Assembly (NCBI GenBank): GCA_030693515.1
Contig: JAUYAK010000010.1
Coordinates: forward strand, 1 to 64,000
DNA length: 64,000 bases
Origin: Opitutaceae bacterium
Lineage (GTDB): Bacteria; Verrucomicrobiota; Verrucomicrobiia; Opitutales; Opitutaceae
Reading direction: 5' to 3'
Of the stretch, positions 1 through 12,000 are shown one piece after another. The translations under genes were made by a program, and so were the position numbers. A model generated the notes under the pieces. That model was given only the letters and a program-made list of their open reading frames with translations. It did no database searches and was not told the origin of the DNA. How positions within the stretch are numbered: the stretch's first letter is position 1; each line of letters starts with the position of its first letter.

Positions 1-339
1 GGGCGCCGGGCGCGCGGCCGGCGCGGGGGCCGGAGCCGGGGTGGCCGCGGCGGTGGCTTGCGCGGTGAGCTGCTGGGAACGCGCCGTGGCGGCGGCCTCG
101 ATCTCGGCGCGGAGGCGCTGGGCGGCGGGGTCGTTGGGCGCGATGGTCGCGAGCTGGGCAAGCGCCTTCTGCGCTCCGGCGAGGTCGCCGGCATCCCGCG
201 CGCGCAGGGCCTCGGACATGAGGCGGATCTTGGCGTCAGTCTGATTTTGCGCGAACGCCGGCTGCGCCGCGAGACCCACGCCCAACAGGGCGGCGGCGAG
301 CACGGCGGACAGAGGCGTGAAGGAGGGGCGAGTTTTCAT
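1..339 (-). CDS. N-terminus of a secretin (Amuc_1098/PilQ-like), cut by the window edge
   Basis: Only the first 113 codons lie in the window; the gene continues past base 1. The protein starts MKTRPSFT and has a clear Sec signal peptide (hydrophobic AVLAAALLGVGLAA, then AFAQ), followed by a charged helical stretch that reads like one TPR unit (about residues 38-75) and an Ala/Pro-rich linker. The family call rests on position. It is the last visible gene of a five-gene minus-strand operon whose order matches Akkermansia Amuc_1102-1101-1100-1099-1098, where Amuc_1098 is a type II/III secretion-type secretin with an N-terminal repeat region. The secretin core itself is outside the window, so this part is inference. 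The upstream gene ends 44 bases before. Confidence 0.6.
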   Translation of the reverse strand, partial: MKTRPSFTPLSAVLAAALLGVGLAAQPAFAQNQTDAKIRLMSEALRARDAGDLAGAQKALAQLATIAPNDPAAQRLRAEIEAAATARSQQLTAQATAAATPAPAPAPAARPAP

Positions 340-383
340 TGCAGAAAGGGAAACAAGGAACGGGACAGGGGAAAAAGGCGGGA

Positions 384-1244
384 CTACGGGCCGGGTTCGC
401 GCTCCGCGTCGGCGTCGGACTCGCGTGGCGTGAGCGTGCGGCGATCAGGTTGGGTGAGCGTGGGGGCCTCCTTGGCGATCTCGATGGAGGGCGGCGAGGT
501 CTCGACTTTCTCGACGCGGAAGGTGGCGTCGCCCACCAGGAAAGAGTCGCCTGCGCGCACTTCGCGGGTGGCTGTGCTGCCAGGCAGCGCGACGAAGGCG
601 AACACCGTGCCGGTGAACACGCGCTCGCGGTTGGTGATGGTAGTCTCGCGGCGCGTCTTCTCGTCGAGAATCACGGCGGTCGCGACCGTCTGGCGGACCG
701 GCATGCTCTCACCGATGCGGACGGCCTGCGCCGCGACCTCGAGGGACTTGATCACGAGGCCGAGCTTGGCGACGCGGTGGCCGGAGCCGGCGACGATCAC
801 CTCGCCGGTGGGGACGTTGACAAACGTGCCGCGCCACGTGCCTTCGCCGCCGGAGTAGCCGATGAGCTGAAGCCGGAAGGGCTCGGGTTTCACGCTCACG
901 AGTTCCACGCCGAAGACCTCGAGTTGATCGTCGTCCACGAGACTCGAGGGCGGCTTCACGGTGAACTGCCGGGAGCGGGTGTTGTAGAAAATCTCCGGCG
1001 GCGTGAAGGTGTCGTAGATCCACTCGCGACCGCGCGACTGCGCGACAGGCGCGGCCCACGTCTCGGCCTTGATGGGCGGGGTCGAGGGGGCCTTGGCATC
1101 GTAGGGGCTTTCGACCAGCTGCACCGGAGGAATCTCCGCGGGCCCCGCGTGGCGCAGGGTGAACCAGCCGAACACGCCGGCGGAAGCGAGCGCGAGGGTG
1201 AGCGCGCCGCCGAGCAGAACTTTGTCCTGTTGCGTGAGGGCCAT
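384..1244 (-). CDS. Amuc_1099-like inner-membrane-anchored protein of the pilus-like operon
   Basis: 286 aa. One N-terminal membrane segment (about residues 9-28), then a Pro-rich linker and a periplasmic domain rich in short beta strands (for example FRLQLIGYSG and GTFVNVPTGEVIVAG). A charged Asp/Glu/Arg tail ends the protein. It starts two bases after the Amuc_1100-like gene stops, so the two are surely co-transcribed. The topology and the place just before the secretin match PilP of type IV pilus systems, a periplasmic link between inner-membrane complex and secretin; that role is inferred from order and topology, not from recognisable PilP motifs. No catalytic motif is visible. Confidence 0.6.
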   Translation of the reverse strand: MALTQQDKVLLGGALTLALASAGVFGWFTLRHAGPAEIPPVQLVESPYDAKAPSTPPIKAETWAAPVAQSRGREWIYDTFTPPEIFYNTRSRQFTVKPPSSLVDDDQLEVFGVELVSVKPEPFRLQLIGYSGGEGTWRGTFVNVPTGEVIVAGSGHRVAKLGLVIKSLEVAAQAVRIGESMPVRQTVATAVILDEKTRRETTITNRERVFTGTVFAFVALPGSTATREVRAGDSFLVGDATFRVEKVETSPPSIEIAKEAPTLTQPDRRTLTPRESDADAEREPGP

Positions 1245-1246
1245 GA

Positions 1247-2344
1247 TCAGGAGGGCGGCGCGGGCGCGGGCGCGGAGCCATCGGCCGGCGCGGCCGGGGC
1301 GACGAGTTCGACGAATTCCACCGTGACGGTGTATTTGGAGAGCGGCTTGGAAACGATGGGCGTGATGGCCGGGGTGCGGGCGGCGGCCTTCGGCGCGGCC
1401 TTGGCCGCGGCTTTCGGCGCCGGGGGCAAGGCCGTGAGGACGACGGACGGAGCGACCGAGGTCTCGGCCGTCGGCTCGGCGGCGGCGACCTCCTCGGCGG
1501 CGGTGTCCTCGGCGCTGGCGGTCTCCACTTCGACCTCACGGACGAGCACCGGCAGCTCGAACGAGGCGAGCTTGTTCAGGAACAAGCGCAGTGCCGCGGT
1601 CTGGCCGGTGAAAGTCAGCTTGAAGGGCACGGTGTCGATGAAGCCGGGCACCCGGGCCGTCACGCGCGGATCGATCGTGAAGTAGTCCGGGCCTTCCGCG
1701 GTGGTCGTCGTGCCATCGGCGCCGGGAGCGGGCTCGGCCGGGGTGCCCGCAGCGGCGGCGGCGTGGGCGGCGGCGCGCTTCTCGCGCTCCTCCTTGCCGA
1801 GCGTGGCTTCGCGGCGCACCGCGAGGATCGCCTGCGGCCTGGCCTCGATGAGAGCCTCGATGAGATACTGCGCGATCTGGCGCTGCCGAAAGACCGGTTC
1901 GATGTGCTCGGCCTCGGGGCCTTGGTTGGCGAAGGCGGCAAAACCGAACCGCGAGGCATCGCCGCGGACGGTGATGTCGTTCTTCTTCGCGAGTTCGCGG
2001 GTTTTTTCGACGAAGGTGGCGAGGTCGAAGTAGGCGTCGGTCCGGTTGGGCGGGAGCTTGGCGGCGCCGAGGCGTTCGGCGGCGGGGCCGCGGCCCTTGA
2101 GTTCGCCCTGCATCGCGGCGAGCGCGGCCTGCGCCTTGGTGAGATCGGTGGCGATGGCGGCGGCGACCTCGCGCTTGGGCGGAGGATTGAGCGTCCCCAT
2201 CGCCAGCAACTCGCCCTGGCGCTGCGCGAGGACCTTCTCGGCTTCGCGCGAGGCCATGAAGCGCTCGTAGATCAGATAGCCTTCGCCGAGGGCCACGACG
2301 CCGCAGACGGCCAGCGCCGTGATGAAGAGCGGATTCTTTCTCAC
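1247..2344 (-). CDS. Amuc_1100-like pilus-associated membrane protein (PilO position)
   Basis: 365 aa. A short cytoplasmic N-terminus, one membrane helix (about residues 5-26), a coiled-coil-prone stretch (about 30-90), then an alpha/beta region with NRTDAYFDLATFVE, RFGFAAFANQGPE and VFRQRQIAQYLIEAL, which I recognise as the pattern of the Amuc_1100 family of Akkermansia muciniphila (317 aa there). An Ala/Pro/Glu-rich insert (about 275-335) makes this copy longer. The GTG start overlaps the upstream stop as GTGA, indicating translational coupling. Amuc_1100 has a PilO-like fold and is known for its action on gut host cells; here the native role is presumably in the envelope complex. Confidence 0.75.
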   Translation of the reverse strand: MRKNPLFITALAVCGVVALGEGYLIYERFMASREAEKVLAQRQGELLAMGTLNPPPKREVAAAIATDLTKAQAALAAMQGELKGRGPAAERLGAAKLPPNRTDAYFDLATFVEKTRELAKKNDITVRGDASRFGFAAFANQGPEAEHIEPVFRQRQIAQYLIEALIEARPQAILAVRREATLGKEEREKRAAAHAAAAAGTPAEPAPGADGTTTTAEGPDYFTIDPRVTARVPGFIDTVPFKLTFTGQTAALRLFLNKLASFELPVLVREVEVETASAEDTAAEEVAAAEPTAETSVAPSVVLTALPPAPKAAAKAAPKAAARTPAITPIVSKPLSKYTVTVEFVELVAPAAPADGSAPAPAPPS

Positions 2345-4086
2345 AGCGTCTTCCTCGGGTTGATGACGAGGGTGAAGTCGAACTTCAGCAGCCCGTTCTG
2401 GTTGGTATCAAAGCGCTCGTTCTCGACGGCGGTCACGAATTGGGAGCCGGTGAAGCTGGCGAGCAGTTGTTTCACGCGCTGGAGGGATTCGGGGCTGACC
2501 TTCGACTGCGGATTGGAAACATCGAGCAGGCGGCCGCTCAACGTCAGGCGAATCGGCGGCGGGAGCGGCGCAGCCGGCGCGGCATTCGGATCAACGGGCG
2601 CGGCGCCGGCGGGCGGCGGCTCGGGCGGTGGCGGCGCATCGAGCGCGACGGTGCCGGGCTCGGGGAGCGCCGGGCGATCGACGTGGATCTTGTCGAGCCA
2701 GACGTCCTCGATTTTCACGAGGCGCTCCTGGAGGTCGGCGAGAAAATTGATCCAGTTGGCCTTGGTCTCGTAGGCGCCGCGGAGCGCGGTGATCTGCTTC
2801 GAGGCCTCCTCGATTTGAGCGAGGTTCTCGGAGTTGCGGAAACTGACCGCGCTGAGCGGCCGGAGCTGATCGTTGACCTGGGCGATGCGCTCGTTGGTCG
2901 CGCTCGTGACGCGGTGAAAATAGAGCGCGGGCGGCGCCAGCGACACGACCGCCAGCGCGGCGGCGGCGATGAGCCAGGGCTGGCGCTTGCGAAATTCCAG
3001 CGCAGCCGTGAGCGCCGGGGGCAACAGGCTGGCGCCCGCCTCCTCTTTTCCGATGAGACCCGTCGCTAGGCCGACCAGATCGGCGAGCACCGGTGCGGCG
3101 CTCTCGGCACCGGCGGCACGCGCATCGGCGGAGACATCGACATTCTTCAGCGCATCGTAGCGCTCGACGGGGAGCTTCAGCTTGTCCGCCAGCTGGCCGG
3201 GCAGCTCCTCGATCAGCGAGCCGCCGCCGGCAAGGTAAAGGGCGACAGGCGCATTGGCCCCCGCCTGCCGGCGATGGTTCACGGCGGAACGCGTGACCTC
3301 CATCTGAAGGCGCGCGGCAAACGCGGCGGCGGCCTTATGCACCGCGGCGCGCGACGGCGAATTGGCCGGCAGATCGCTTTTGCCCGAGAGGACCTGAATC
3401 TTGAGGGCCTCGGCCGAGGCGAAATCGATGCGGAGCTCCTCGACCAGGGCCTGCGTCACGGCGTTGCCCGCAAACGCCAGCGTGCGCACATAGAAGCGCT
3501 CGCCTTCGAGGAAGAGCATGCTCGTCGTGCGCGCCCCCACATTCACCACGATCACGCTGTCGGTGATCTTGGGGTAGTTATAACGGAAGCCGCGGCAGAG
3601 CGCCAAACTGGCCGGCGTGGCATGCTCGACCGGAAAGCCCGCCGCATCCGAGGCGGCGCAGAGCGACTGCATCGCCTCGAACTTCACCGCCGTCAGCATC
3701 ACATCGAGGTCGAAGCCATCGTCGGCCACCACATAGCTGTCCCAGACGACCTCCTCCAAGGGATAGGGAATGTTTTCCGCCGCCTCGAAGCTGATGATCT
3801 TCCCGCGCTTCTCCTTGGCGACCGACGGGGTCTTGATGAATTTCGTCAGCGCCAGATGGCCGGGCACGGCGATGGAAGCGGGGCCGGCCAGCTTGCGCCG
3901 CGCGCCCACCGCGCCGAGCGATTGCGTGATCTCCACGGCCCAGCGGGCTTCGTGCGAGGGGTCCGAGCTGTGCGGCTCCAACGCAAAATGCTGGAGGACA
4001 AGCCGACCCGACGCCCCGACCGCGAACGATCCGCACGCGACATGGCCGGCTCCAATGTCAACGGCTAGAACGCGGGGGCTTCGCAT
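2341..4086 (-). CDS. PilM-PilN fusion protein (Amuc_1101-like)
   Basis: 581 aa from the ATG at 4086; a TTG 15 bases upstream is possible. Residues about 1-340 are an actin/FtsA-fold ATPase of the PilM type (VLAVDIGAGHVACG near the start, VIVVNVGARTTSMLFLEGE around 180, LYLAGGGSLIEELPGQLAD around 280). Near residue 365 a membrane helix (WLIAAAALAVVSLAPPALYF) follows, then a coiled coil and a C-terminal domain laid out like PilN. PilM (cytoplasmic) and PilN (membrane) are separate proteins in proteobacterial pili; here one chain holds both. It is the second gene of the operon, 82 bases after the Amuc_1102-like gene, and overlaps the next gene by four bases. Confidence 0.8.
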   Translation of the reverse strand: MRSPRVLAVDIGAGHVACGSFAVGASGRLVLQHFALEPHSSDPSHEARWAVEITQSLGAVGARRKLAGPASIAVPGHLALTKFIKTPSVAKEKRGKIISFEAAENIPYPLEEVVWDSYVVADDGFDLDVMLTAVKFEAMQSLCAASDAAGFPVEHATPASLALCRGFRYNYPKITDSVIVVNVGARTTSMLFLEGERFYVRTLAFAGNAVTQALVEELRIDFASAEALKIQVLSGKSDLPANSPSRAAVHKAAAAFAARLQMEVTRSAVNHRRQAGANAPVALYLAGGGSLIEELPGQLADKLKLPVERYDALKNVDVSADARAAGAESAAPVLADLVGLATGLIGKEEAGASLLPPALTAALEFRKRQPWLIAAAALAVVSLAPPALYFHRVTSATNERIAQVNDQLRPLSAVSFRNSENLAQIEEASKQITALRGAYETKANWINFLADLQERLVKIEDVWLDKIHVDRPALPEPGTVALDAPPPPEPPPAGAAPVDPNAAPAAPLPPPIRLTLSGRLLDVSNPQSKVSPESLQRVKQLLASFTGSQFVTAVENERFDTNQNGLLKFDFTLVINPRKTL

Positions 4087-4168
4087 AGAGGGATAAGGCA
4101 AATGGCGATTTCAGATGCGGCGAGACGCGGCAAGCGGATTGTGAGTTACGGGATTCCCGGTCCGCTCC

Positions 4169-4777
4169 TCACCGCGCGTCGCGGCGCACAAAAGACGGCG
4201 TCGCCCGCGGATGCTCCAGCGCGAACGGAGTCAGGAACTGCGGCACCAGCACGCCATCGTTGGCCGCGGCCGCCGTGCTGGTCTTGGCCTGAAAGTTTTT
4301 CCGCTGCTCGGCGTTCGCGAGCGTCGGGCTGTAGGCCGACCGCTCCGCCGGCTGGGGCCGGCCCGCCGCCGTCAGCTCGACTCCCCAGTATTTCGGATCG
4401 CCGTGGAGCTGATCGCGTTTCACCAGCTCCGGTGGCAGATAAAACCGCACGTGGGCGCGCCCCGTCTCCAGGGCGACACATTCGGCCTCGGCGCGGTAGG
4501 ACTCCAGCCGCCGCTCCCCACCCGCCGGTCCCGGCAACTCGAACGCCAGTAGCAGCGCCACGCGCACGCGCGGCACCATCTGGCCCACGGCGCCGGACGG
4601 CGGTTTGACTTGCAGGGCAATTTCCGCCTCGAGCCATGAGCCCACGGCACCGTTCGGCGCGCGGACATTGGAAAACCGCACGGTTGCGACCTCCACCTCG
4701 GCCGCCCCTAGTTGGGGGCCAACGAGTCCGAGGAACAGAAGCCAGACGCCAAGGGCAAGAGGGGAAAGCGCGCGCAC
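4169..4777 (-). CDS. Amuc_1102-like secreted protein, first gene of the pilus-like operon
   Basis: 202 aa with a GTG start at 4777, chosen because it places a classical signal peptide (LGVWLLFLGLVG...LGAAE) at the N-terminus; the frame stays open to 4921 but that extension looks non-coding. After cleavage the protein is a compact beta-rich domain (VEVATVRFSNVRAPNG, SWLEAEIALQVKPP, RVRVALLLAFELPG, HVRFYLPPELVKRD). The Akkermansia protein at this operon position, Amuc_1102, has as I recall an immunoglobulin-like fold related to archaeal pilus proteins; this beta pattern and length fit. Divergent from the Nudix gene, whose start is 180 bases away, so the operon promoter should lie between 4778 and 4956. 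Confidence 0.6.
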   Translation of the reverse strand: MRALSPLALGVWLLFLGLVGPQLGAAEVEVATVRFSNVRAPNGAVGSWLEAEIALQVKPPSGAVGQMVPRVRVALLLAFELPGPAGGERRLESYRAEAECVALETGRAHVRFYLPPELVKRDQLHGDPKYWGVELTAAGRPQPAERSAYSPTLANAEQRKNFQAKTSTAAAANDGVLVPQFLTPFALEHPRATPSFVRRDAR

Positions 4778-4956
4778 GCCCGCAACGTGAGCCGCGAGAC
4801 GGCGCTGGTCACGAAAATTTTCCTCTGCCGTGCGACGGACAGACCGAGGGGTGCGGCCTTTTCCTTGCACGCCCGGCCACACTCCCCGTCTCTCTTGCCC
4901 TGCGTCCGCCATTTTCCTCACCCACCACCCTGCCCGCCTCTTCCCTCCGCCCGCCG

Positions 4957-6969: not shown

Positions 6970-7299
6970 TTACCGAATTTCCACGATGCGACTTCCGGAC
7001 TCCAGCGCCTCAACCATCGCCGCGAGCTGCGTTCGGATTTTCTCCAGCAACACCTGCTTTCGGCAGTTGCCAATTTTCACCCAGACAAAGCGACCCGTGC
7101 TGCCCGGCGCCAGCGCCAGAAAATGGAAGTCCTCGTCCTTGCTCACGATTATCATCTCGTGGGCGACGGCGTAACGCCAGATTGCCCCGTCATCCGCGTC
7201 CTTCATCCCGATTTCCCTGACATGCTGCGCCGTGTGCCCGGCGCTTTCCAGAAACCGGGCCAGCGCCGGTGGCAGATGCTGGTCCACGACGAATCTCAC
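6970..7299 (-). CDS. DUF5615 PIN-like protein, putative toxin
   Basis: 109 aa. MRFVVDQHLPPALARFLESAGH is split by the family's typical early Asp (D6), and there is a second acidic cluster DADDGAIWRYA and SKDEDF around residue 55; these are the usual acidic positions of the DUF5615 branch of PIN-like nucleases. The start is GTG, overlapping the stop of the DUF433 gene as GTGA. DUF433-DUF5615 pairs are a widespread putative type II toxin-antitoxin arrangement, with the PIN-like protein as a presumed RNase toxin; activity here is inferred. Downstream lies the DUF1501 relic. Confidence 0.8.
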   Translation of the reverse strand: MRFVVDQHLPPALARFLESAGHTAQHVREIGMKDADDGAIWRYAVAHEMIIVSKDEDFHFLALAPGSTGRFVWVKIGNCRKQVLLEKIRTQLAAMVEALESGSRIVEIR

Positions 7300-7526
7300 G
7301 CTGACAGCAGCACGACATGGTCGGTTTGGTGCGCGGCGTAGGCGATGGCCGCGAGAATGTCGTCGCGCTCAAGATCGGGATAGTCTTCCAGAATCTCTTC
7401 GTAGGAAGCGTCGGCGCTGAGGAGCTGCAGGATGTCTGTGACCCGCATTCTCATCCCGCGGATGCATGGCCGTCCACCGCACTTGCCGGGCTCGACGGTG
7501 ATGCGCTTGAGCAGCTCCGAATTCAT
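7296..7526 (-). CDS. DUF433 protein, putative antitoxin
   Basis: 76 aa. Typical DUF433 sequence: ITVEPGKCGGRPCIRGMRM near residue 10, then VTDILQLLSADASYEEIL and DYPDLERDDILAAIAYAAH. The family folds as a small winged-helix-like DNA-binding unit and usually precedes a DUF5615 gene, as here. The start ATG at 7526 is chosen because all family similarity begins there. The four-base overlap with the toxin-like gene implies coupled translation, and autoregulation is likely but no operator could be recognised in the 98 bases separating it from the DUF1501 stop. Confidence 0.82.
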   Translation of the reverse strand: MNSELLKRITVEPGKCGGRPCIRGMRMRVTDILQLLSADASYEEILEDYPDLERDDILAAIAYAAHQTDHVVLLSA

Positions 7527-7624
7527 GCCATCACCTTGGTCGGAATGAAAAGCCAGACAAGCCCTGTTTTCGGGCGGTCTTGCGCCGATACGAGCCGAGC
7601 TACTGAGCCGGCCAAGACTCAACT

Positions 7625-9028
7625 TTATCCCATGAAACCCAGATTCGGTTTCGCGAAGCGACCGATGTTGGGGAGGACAGTCGAAAGGTTGCTGGCGCTC
7701 ACACCGAACCACGTCGCGAGGGTGGCGTTGTATTCATCGACGCTCGTGCTCGGAATCCATCGTCCGCGGCCGGTGTCGTCGTCGGCGTTGATTGTGAGAC
7801 TCGGCATGCGGCCGTAGATGTCGCCGCCCTTCACGGCGCCGCCCATAATGAATTGATGGTTGCCCCAGCCGTGGTCGGTGCCGTCGGCGTTCGGGTTGTA
7901 TGTGCGGCCGAAATCCGAGGCGGTGAACGTAGTGACCTGGTTTTCCACACCAAGTGCGATGGTGGCGTTGTGGAACGCGCCGAGCGCGCCGCTGATCTCC
8001 GCAAGCAACGGAGCGTGGCCGGTCGCCTGTGCGGCGTGCAGATCCCAACCGTGCAGCTGCACGAAGAACACTTGCCGCTTCAGACCCAACATCGGGGCGG
8101 CCGCGATCAACCGCGCCACCATCGCGAGGCGTTGCGCGGTCGGCGTGGCCGGAAAGGCCGTGGCTGGCGGCGGTGTGGCCCGCAGAGCAGTGAAGAGCAG
8201 CTCGCTGTCTGCGATGGCTCGGCGCGTGGTCGAGGCAAACGCGTCGTTGAGCAGGTTGGCCTGCGGGTCGCCCGCGAGCGCCTTGATTGCGTCGTAACGG
8301 AAATCGTTGGTTCCACCCGTGGTGTTGAGTCCGGAGAGCGTGACGGCCCCGGCAGTGCCAACCGAATACTGCGCGACAGAACGGCCGATCTGGAAACGGT
8401 TCGTGCCGCTGAGCGTGAGCGACATCGATATCTGGTTGTTGCTGTTCAGCGCATCCACCGCGTCGGCCAGCCGGCCGCCCCAGCCTGTCTCAAAAGGCCG
8501 GTCGGGCACACTGCTCTGCCACTGAAGGAGTTGATCGCTGTGGGAGTAGAGCTGTGGCGGCAGCGCCGTGCCGGCGCGATACTGCGCGAGCGTAGTTGGG
8601 CGGAGCAGCGTGCCGACGTTGGCAAGCACCGCGAGCTTGCCTTGGCCAAACAGCGCGTGCAGCTCACCCAACGCGGGATGCAGTCCGAAGGACCGCGCGT
8701 CAGCCAGCGTCCTCGGCGTGATCGGCAGCAAGCGGCTGCGCTCCACAGCAAGGAGCCCGCGGGCCACCGCGTAGGTGGCGTGGCCCGCCGCGTCTGCGGG
8801 CACGATCATGCTGTTGCCGTCGTTGCCGCCGTTGAGGAAGAGGCAGACGAGGGCCTTGTAGTCCGCGGCCGGGGCCGCCACGCGGCGCACGTCCGTCGCA
8901 TCGGCCGCCACAGCACCGATGAGCCGCAATTGGGAAATGGCCGACGCCATGCCGACGGCGCCGACCGCCGAGCAGCAGGCCTGGCGAAAAAAAAGCCGCC
9001 GACTGAGATCCGCTGGTTGAGTAGTCAT
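7625..9028 (-). CDS. DUF1501 secreted protein (Tat substrate)
   Basis: 467 aa. The N-terminus has a twin-arginine signal (SRRLFFRQ followed by a weakly hydrophobic stretch), so export of a folded protein by Tat is expected. The body is a DUF1501 protein: KALVCLFLNGGNDGNSMIVP near residue 55, VFFVQLHGWDLH around 325, and SDFGRTYNPNADGTDHGWGN around 380. DUF1501 is a sulfatase/alkaline-phosphatase-superfamily relative with unknown substrate. It lies 12 bases after the DUF1800 gene; the two families are habitual neighbours in Planctomycetes, Verrucomicrobia and some proteobacteria and are likely one secreted module. Confidence 0.88.
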   Translation of the reverse strand: MTTQPADLSRRLFFRQACCSAVGAVGMASAISQLRLIGAVAADATDVRRVAAPAADYKALVCLFLNGGNDGNSMIVPADAAGHATYAVARGLLAVERSRLLPITPRTLADARSFGLHPALGELHALFGQGKLAVLANVGTLLRPTTLAQYRAGTALPPQLYSHSDQLLQWQSSVPDRPFETGWGGRLADAVDALNSNNQISMSLTLSGTNRFQIGRSVAQYSVGTAGAVTLSGLNTTGGTNDFRYDAIKALAGDPQANLLNDAFASTTRRAIADSELLFTALRATPPPATAFPATPTAQRLAMVARLIAAAPMLGLKRQVFFVQLHGWDLHAAQATGHAPLLAEISGALGAFHNATIALGVENQVTTFTASDFGRTYNPNADGTDHGWGNHQFIMGGAVKGGDIYGRMPSLTINADDDTGRGRWIPSTSVDEYNATLATWFGVSASNLSTVLPNIGRFAKPNLGFMG

Positions 9029-9040
9029 ACGAGTGAAGAG

Positions 9041-12000
9041 TCAGCGTTGAACGGCTGCGTCGGGCGAGAGGATGACGAGATGCACCGCAGCCATCGCTCG
9101 CTCCAGGTCTGTCACCGCGGGGCTGGGGTTCGTCGCGATCTGGCGGTGCGCGGTGGCGAGTCGGCTCCGTGTGGCCGTGCTCATCGAGCCGCCGCAAAAC
9201 AGGAGGTTCAATTGGTCGAGGATCGCTTCCGTGTTGCGGGCATTGGGCAGCAGCGCCGCGTAGTCGGGAAAGAGGAACGGCGAGGGAGTCGGCACGCCGG
9301 CGGTGAGCGGGGCCGCCTGGCGATAAACCCAGTTCAGCAGGAAATTCGGAACCGTGACGGCGGTAATCGCATCGGTGATCTGCATCTCGGGCGCAACCAA
9401 GCCCGCCGCTGCTAGCGCCCCCGGGGGCGAGTAGTCGGGAGAGTAAAAGTTGAAGACCGATTGCGCCGCCAGTGTTGCCTGCCCGAGCGTGCCCTGCGGG
9501 TGGTGCAGTGCGTAGCCGGCCGGGCCCCAGCCGTTCGCATTGCGCGGATCGCTCCACCAACTGTCGAGATAGCGGCCGTTGGCCGCCTTAATCTCCAGCG
9601 CGCGGAACAGGCCGGTAGTCCGGATAACAGGCTCCTTGAGCTTGCCGTAACCCACATTGCCGATCACCGCGGGCGAACGCGCCTCGTAGTCGGTTAGGAT
9701 CGCGCGCACGACGGCGCCCAAGTTGCCACGCACGCCGCTGCCGTCGTTGGCGAAGACCTGCGCGACCCGATACACATAGGCGGGGCTGGGATTGCTGGTG
9801 ACGAGGCGCTGAATCAACTGCCGGCCGATGAACGGCCCGGTGTTCGGATGGCCAGCAAGCGTGTCGAGCAGCACCTTCAAGTCCTGCGGCCCGGTCTGGT
9901 TCGCAGGGATCACGGTGCGGCTCGCCTGTGCGAGCGGCACCTGCTGCGAACTCACGACACGCTTCTCCGTCTTGTCATGCTGCGCATCCGAGTAACGCAT
10001 GGGGACGAGCCAGCCATTGGCGGGATCGAACGTGGGCAAATTGGACGTGGTCGCCGGATTTGCGCCAAATGCGCCATTGCCCGCGATGTTGAACGTCCAA
10101 CCGGTGAAAACCTTGGCCGTCTCCGTAATGATCGCCTGGTCATAGGTGGGGATCGGCTCGCCCGCGGCATCGAGCATCAGCGTGCCGTCGGGATGGAGCT
10201 GCACGAGGCCGATGGTGAAGAGCTGCTGGATCTCGCGCGCGTAGTTCTCGTCGGGGCTGCTGCCGGTCACGAGATTGGCCTTCACATTCGAGATGTGGCT
10301 GAGGAACCAGCCCATCGCCGGGCTCAGGCTTACTTGCTCGAGCAAACCGCGGAAGCTGCCAAAGGCTCCGTTCGTGAGGATGTCGTGGAATGCGGCCAGG
10401 GACTCGGCGTTGTCGCTCAGTCGATCATTGGTTTCGGAGACCACGAAAATCTGGCTAAGTGCAAAGGCGACGCGCTGCCGCAACTGGTCGGGCGCAGTCA
10501 TCATGATTTTCCACTCGGCCGTGTGGCGGTTGAAGACATGGGTGCGCTTGAAGATGATTGTCGGAGGCGGCGGCGGGTTGGGGAACTCCGCCACATCGGC
10601 CAAAAGTCCGGCGAGGTGCGACGTCGCGGGCAGCCCCATCTGCTCGTCGATCCAGCGCATGAGGCCGAGCGCAAGCACGCGTTCGATCTCGGCAAAGGTA
10701 GGCCCAAACGTGGCCTGCGTCAGGAAACGTGCGGCGTCGGTGGCGCTCGGCGCCGCCAACGCCCCGTTGGGAAGCGCTGGCGGCGACACGGGCACCGCGA
10801 AAGCCTGCGAGCCCGTTGCAACGACGAAATTCCCGCGCAGCTCGCCCGCGGGATTCCGCGCGGAGCCCAGCACGACGAAAATGTTGCCGGAATTGAGCGC
10901 ATTGATGAGGTCGTTGGTCGTGTGCGCACCGCTGGGGGAAAAAGTCCACGTGATGCCGTTTACCTGATCCCGCGGCAAATTCAGCACGTAGTCGCCGGCC
11001 CCGCCGAGCGCGAGCTGCGCAGCGGTCTGCGCGGAGCTGAGGTTCGAGAAGCGCACGGTCACGCTCGCGGTGCCATCGGCGTTGATCAGGACAGTGGCGT
11101 AGCCCGAGGCGGTGGAGCCGGTGGCCGTGGGATCGGGCCGGAGTTGGGCGACATAGAGCGAGGCGTTGGGGCGCGCGCCGGTCTGATTGACGGGCGTGAG
11201 GTCGTAAACCTCGACGAGAGCGGCACCGGTGGTCGCACCGACACCGCTGACCTGAAGACTGTAGCTGCCGGCGGAAAGATTGAGGAGAAGCGCGGCGTCC
11301 TTGCTGCCGTCCGCGAGGGGGAAGGCGCCGTTGGCGGTGAAGGCGGCGGCGAGCGTCGCGGCATCGGCCGCGGTCGCGGCGGTGGGCGTGCCCCAGTTGT
11401 CGTTCTCCGCGATCTTCGTGCTGCCCGAGTAGAGTTCCAATTTCGGATCGGCGAGCGTGCCGGGCACGCCGAAGGCGCCGAGCGTCGGACCGACGGCGCG
11501 CAGCAGGAGCCGGCGCGTGCCTGCGCCGGGGGCGATCGTGATGCCGGGAATGAGGAGGTTCGCGCCGGTGCCGACTTGAGCGCGCGTCGAGAGATTGATG
11601 AGGCGCGTGGCGCCGCCGGTGACTTCGTAAACCTCCACGAGGGCCACGCCGCTCGTGCCGCTGAGGCCGGTGACCTGCGCACTGTAACTGCCCGGCGCGA
11701 GCGTCGCGACGAGCGCGGCGTCCTTCGCGCCGGCACCGAGCGGAAACGCGCCGACCGCCGCAAAAGCCGGTGCGTCGCTCGCGTTGAAGTTGTCGTTCTC
11801 CGCGATCTTCGTGCTGCCGGAGTAGAGTTCGAGTTTCGGATCGCCGAGCGTGCCGGGGACGCCGAACACCCCGAGCGTGGGCCCGACCGCGCGAACCAAG
11901 ACCGTCTTGTCGGGTCCAGGCCCGATGGTGAAGCCGGTGATGAGGATGTCCGCCCCACCGGCGGAGGTGCGCACCGAGAGGTTGGAGAGCCGGGTGTCTT

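Follow-up and report, generated by a model that had tools for sequence, protein, structure and literature searches.

Amuc_1100 of Akkermansia muciniphila has been studied as a product that acts on the host, and the purified protein activates TLR2 (PMC5332112). The locus to which it belongs, Amuc_1098-1102 or MUL2, is described in the main text of Wilkie et al. (2026; PMC13174399) in aquatic Akkermansiaceae and often in Verrucomicrobiales, more rarely in Chthoniobacterales, and is given there as absent from Methylacidiphilales. According to the same text, MUL2-like loci are proposed to serve attachment and glycan uptake and are linked to fucoidan accumulation. Independent reports in other organisms tie the locus to the accumulation of mucin and fucoidan (PMC13174399; PMC12418764). 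That main text mentions neither Opitutales, nor the assignment of a motor, nor a giant gene (PMC13174399).

In this work we analysed a window of 64 kb, the first part of contig C108 of an Opitutaceae genome of 6.65 Mb in 130 contigs. A survey of its open reading frames gave five minus-strand frames within positions 1-4921, and a sixth gene lies on another contig, C47. These features are, in the order of transcription:

4169..4921, minus strand: Amuc_1102-like secreted protein (Ig-fold relative), the operon's first gene, 250 aa counted from the first GTG
2341..4101, minus strand: Amuc_1101-like PilM-PilN fusion, 586 aa (PilM_2, E 2.4e-20; Amuc_1101_fam, E 7.8e-96)
1247..2344, minus strand: Amuc_1100-like protein at the PilO position, 365 aa (Amuc_1100_fam, E 5.4e-17)
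384..1244, minus strand: Amuc_1099-like protein at the PilP position, 286 aa, with an N-terminal membrane helix and a C-terminal PilP-fold domain
1..339, minus strand: N-terminal 113 aa (signal peptide, TPR-like) of an Amuc_1098-type secretin, cut by the end of the window and contig
C47:2481-8729, outside the window: giant Ig-repeat protein, 2082 aa, with about ten Big_7 Ig domains, starting 3 bp after the secretin stop

The real start of the 1102-like gene may lie near 4777 instead of 4921. The spacings from 1102 to 1098 are 67, -4, 2 and 44 bp, followed by 3 bp to the sixth gene, which points to a single operon. Contig C47 opens with an exact 20-bp overlap to the end of C108, and the secretin frame runs on for 824 codons (C47 bases 3-2477), giving a joined product of 931 aa; in profile searches the portion on C47 scores E 1.6e-124 against Amuc_1098_fam and E 2.8e-35 against Pfam Secretin. 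The join is further supported by the genes found beyond the secretin on C47, a 5'-3' exonuclease-like and a HisG-like gene (named by eye), since these are the genes that follow the operon in relatives. The reading of base 1 as lying within a secretin, made from the window's letters, is thus borne out, with no non-secretin gene continuing there. Elsewhere in the window, at 6970-7712 on the minus strand, two small neighbouring genes resemble, by eye and from their translations, a DUF5615/DUF433 toxin-antitoxin-type pair.

The initial annotation had recognized the order of Amuc_1098-1102 in these five genes, and alignment of each product confirms it: all five are homologous and in the same order, the relationship being strong for 1098, 1101 and 1100, visible in profile-profile comparison for 1102, and traced for 1099 only through a bridging homologue and its PilP fold. 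The reference was G113 (2,664,102 bp), which we take to be the A. muciniphila type strain, whose products match the Amuc families strongly and whose locus is:

1,310,567-1,318,007 of G113: A. muciniphila five-gene locus

Profiles built solely from Opitutaceae find this genome's 1101 (E 2e-91), 1098 (E 2.4e-97) and 1100 (E 7.5e-11), 1101 being about 24% identical to its A. muciniphila counterpart. The 1102-like product matches NCBIfam Amuc_1102_rel weakly (E 0.0064), while its profile reaches an Akkermansiaceae homologue at E 1.1e-5 and PDB 7DSZ at E 1.1e-4, and hhalign against Akkermansiaceae 1102 gives 96.9% (P 1.9e-10). The 1099 product has no direct match to Amuc_1099_fam in the NCBIfam search; its profile reaches at E 1.1e-6 a bridging homologue that itself scores E 4.4e-58 to that family, and hhalign gives 96.8% with the bridging homologue and only 41% without it. 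With 1099, 1100 and 1102 as direct phmmer queries, no A. muciniphila match was found at 1e-3, so that profiles were required. NCBIfam holds families for all five genes (NF042912, NF042425, NF038287, NF045709, NF042424), and none of the products reaches the equivalog cut-off (in bits, 322 of 650 for 1101, 62 of 180 for 1100, 16 of 55 for 1102, and 417 of 750 for the 824 of 931 aa searched for 1098), for which reason we class the operon as a variant and not as an equivalog. One match, of profile A3 to the PDB entry of Amuc_1100 (E 1.3e-58), was discarded as circular, as A3 contains Amuc_1100.

Structure prediction agrees with these assignments. The 1101 model (pLDDT 88) has a PilM fold at residues 7-352, one membrane helix at about 362-387, a long helix and a small alpha/beta domain at the PilN position; in the VIA comparison with PDB its best match is PilM (2ych_A, Z 33.6, 2.7 A over 323 residues), with FtsA second (30.8). 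For the PilN part a helix plus alpha/beta arrangement is predicted, the structure matches listed being those of PilM. The proposed PilM fusion stands, as a protein of 586 aa that joins PilM (PilM_2 E 2.4e-20, Z 33.6) to a membrane-anchored region at the PilN position. The 1099 model (pLDDT 80.5) places three PilP chains at the top of VIA (Z 8.6 for 3jc8_Pa, 8.1 for 2ivw, and 7.6 for 4av2_M, 2.0 A over 68), well above the first unrelated row (Z 4.4), and Foldseek with the same model gave no match below 0.001 (PilP, E 0.11); the C-terminal domain of the protein called at the PilP position thus does have a PilP-like fold. Its homology to Amuc_1100 suggests that the 1100 product takes the role of PilO.

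The initial annotation had stressed the presence of the gene order outside the gut lineage; this is no curiosity, as the operon is ordinary across the phylum and already published for aquatic Akkermansiaceae. By profile search and hand count, about 345 of the 388 Verrucomicrobiota genomes have an Amuc_1101 homologue with E below 1e-20 (weaker matches look FtsA-like). In the window's family, identified as Opitutaceae through its named relatives, about 107 of 122 genomes have it, and losses are scattered. Of 109 related loci, among which some genomes are represented twice, 72 keep the order 1102-1101-1100-1099-1098, which excludes chance. The named Opitutaceae relatives come chiefly from lakes and groundwater, and the operon is also present in Geminisphaera from termite gut. 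This termite-gut occurrence, together with the TLR2 activity of purified Amuc_1100 (PMC5332112), could be taken to mean that interaction with a host, as in the gut, is why the operon was retained or acquired. We regard this as extremely improbable, given that the genes are phylum-wide in mostly environmental genomes and sit in a conserved chromosomal neighbourhood (exonuclease, HisG). The same distribution upholds the suggestion that the first role is that of a conserved envelope machine and not of gut signalling.

Several loci depart from the common layout. In three Opitutaceae loci (L114:4211-5812, L115:12122-13885, L123:10897-12555) the 1100 and 1099 homologues are joined in a single open frame that may encode a PilO-PilP fusion; in genome G116 the secretin is on a different contig from the other operon genes; and in another verrucomicrobial genome (L120:9210-15068) the operon ends in tandem secretin-like genes of 878 and 1066 aa. 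The 1098-type secretin at locus L311 (G358:C33:145267-145863) is truncated, and no PilM-PilN gene was detected in its genome; it is a probable remnant of operon loss.

With no PilB, PilT or pilin in view, the initial annotation had considered a pilus-like or secretion-like complex of a class of its own. The absence is real within the window, and in the related loci examined no ATPase or pilin gene was seen between the five genes, but it does not extend to the genome, which elsewhere encodes 15 secretion ATPases of the T2SSE family and 23 prepilin-type (N-methyl) N-termini. A cluster at C46:24-30 kb has the order PilB1-PilT-PilB2-PilC, and pilins are on C20, so that PilM fold, PilP fold, secretin, PilB, PilC and pilins are all present in this genome, as in type IVa pilus systems. 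Three small relatives (G176, G149 and G305; 1.6-2.1 Mb, 97-98% complete) each have one detected secretin, inside the five-gene operon, and PilB1-PilT-PilB2 as the only secretion ATPases above cut-off, adjoining PilC at another locus; the pairing in these three rests on secretins, secretion ATPases and PilC. In A. muciniphila, PilB1-PilB2-PilC lies near 1.905-1.909 Mb, and two PilT genes are located near 0.203 Mb. In G116 and G208 PilM-PilN, PilB1, PilB2 and PilC are present and PilT was not found, which indicates that PilT is dispensable. From the relatives with a sole secretin and a sole motor, and from the motor sets of A. muciniphila, G116 and G208, a split pilus machine is the simplest reading.

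A separate machine class that needs no ATPase, working by a mechanism unrelated to type IV pili, would fit the bare five-gene run and the independent loss of motor and operon in Opitutaceae. It is nevertheless very unlikely in view of the PilP and PilM folds and the secretin, of the genomes with a sole secretin and a sole motor, and of the fact that a strong 1101 homologue always comes with a T2SSE ATPase in the genome (0 of 388 phylum genomes have the former without the latter). The idea of a class of its own accordingly finds no support: relatives with a single secretin keep PilB-PilT-PilB-PilC, and the PilP fold is that of the type IVa alignment complex. A stricter rule, co-occurrence of the operon with C46-type PilT in Opitutaceae, was also rejected (in a first count, PilT was found in 18 of 23 genomes with the operon and in 9 of 17 without it). 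Two genomes first scored as operon-negative, G388 and G471, were positive with a closer profile.

The C46-type motor is not dedicated to the Amuc-type operon, since seven Opitutaceae genomes without this operon retain it. The window's genome (G000) has, in addition, a second secretin operon:

Contig C48 (L335:2966-7516, L012:3444-7070): PilM', PilN', PilO', a PilP-position gene, a PilQ-like secretin and a Big_7 giant

Its PilM' is unfused and matches TIGR01175 weakly (E 3.9e-8), and its secretin is nearer to PilQ (E 2.9e-74). The second-type secretin is present in all seven of the genomes that keep the motor without the Amuc-type operon, and where genes could be called it lies in an unfused PilM'-PilN'-PilO'-PilP-position-PilQ-like operon; in four operon-negative genomes without C46-type PilT (G346, G419, G080, G467) it was not found. 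Both operons occur in the window's genome and either could use the motor, whose pairing with the Amuc-type operon is thus unproved in this organism.

The sixth gene is a feature of the window's clade. A large co-directional gene follows the secretin in all 12 close relatives that have sequence beyond it, at spacings of -3 to 26 bp, the sequence of the remaining close relatives stopping at a contig end; no giant lies beside the secretin in Akkermansia or in most other families of the phylum. The C47 and C48 giants share a C-terminal region of about 290 aa (42% identity, E about 1e-44), which is a tandem pair of domains of about 120 aa with the consensus LIRAVGPTLAxFGV...GAFALxxGSRDAALLVTLPPGxYTxQVSGV...VEVYE. 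This region has 122 matches genome-wide and is also seen in the window (11192-11950, minus strand); dozens of large secreted proteins carry it at their extreme C-terminus, and in 19 of 20 sampled proteins it ends at most 3 residues from the last one. It has no meaningful Pfam match and no PDB chain, and NCBIfam DVUA0089 comes only near the cut-off. Judged from sequence, the tandem domain looks like a candidate sorting or anchoring domain.

These giants raise the question of export. The operon might be mainly a type II secretion-like exporter, in which a short pseudopilus would drive the giant, and perhaps other tandem-domain proteins, through the secretin. The 3-bp distance to the secretin, the large gene in 12 of 12 relatives, the giant that also ends the C48 operon with its shared C-terminal region, and the dispensability of PilT all suit such a function, and a giant after two of seven secretins is improbable by chance (P about 0.003, assuming 5000-6000 genes). 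On the other hand, a giant by the secretin is absent from Akkermansia and from most of the phylum's families, the 122 tandem-domain matches make a general export route equally likely, the giants at the same position in loci L103 and L107 are without the tandem domain, and the usual partner is a PilB-PilT-PilB cluster. We therefore consider an exporter rather unlikely, the linked gene being suggestive only, by its position, of secretin-mediated protein export. A broader proposal, that Opitutaceae secretin machines, the Amuc type among them, export or display large surface proteins by means of a tandem C-terminal sorting signal of about 120-aa domains, outside Pfam and present in dozens of copies per genome, appears quite doubtful.

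We favour, and hold to be probable, the reading in which the operon supplies the envelope half of a type IV pilus-type machine that is split between loci, with its motor in trans, a filament for polysaccharide particles that passes through the secretin, and the giant as a partner specific to the clade. In such a machine 1098 would be the outer-membrane secretin, 1099 the PilP-fold linker, 1100 the occupant of the PilO position and 1101 the PilM-PilN fusion of an alignment complex, with 1102 as a secreted accessory. PilB1, PilB2, PilC, usually PilT, and pilins, all encoded at other loci, would work in trans and drive a filament through the secretin, with which the cell would attach to polysaccharide particles and take them up; in the window's clade the sixth gene would supply a giant Ig-repeat surface protein, probably an adhesin or an export substrate. 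We infer the physical pairing of motor and operon, the filament, its substrate and the role of the giant, the polysaccharide in particular from published work in Akkermansiaceae and not in the window's organism. The comparison shows a machine that is spread throughout the phylum, and giant surface proteins sharing a C-terminal domain are possible partners of it. For Amuc_1100, the complex likely runs on a PilB1-PilB2-PilC motor, with or without PilT, a proposal that can be tested.

Compared with known systems, the operon shares with the type IVa pilus alignment complex PilMNOPQ the PilM fold, the PilP fold and the secretin, and PilN and PilO by position, whereas here PilM and PilN are fused, 1102 is added and the motor is at a separate locus. 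The C48 operon follows the same logic, with the same kind of giant downstream, but its PilM is unfused. The MUL2-like loci that the main text of PMC13174399 describes from aquatic Akkermansiaceae and further Verrucomicrobiota are the same locus outside the gut, so that this aspect of our observations was known in kind. With Amuc_1098-1102 (MUL2) of A. muciniphila the operon has in common the five homologues, their order and strand, and the PilM fusion; it differs in its downstream neighbours, exonuclease and HisG here and CoaE in A. muciniphila, and in the sixth, giant gene that the window's clade adds. What is new is this sixth gene in the window's clade, and a testable motor for the Amuc_1100 complex.
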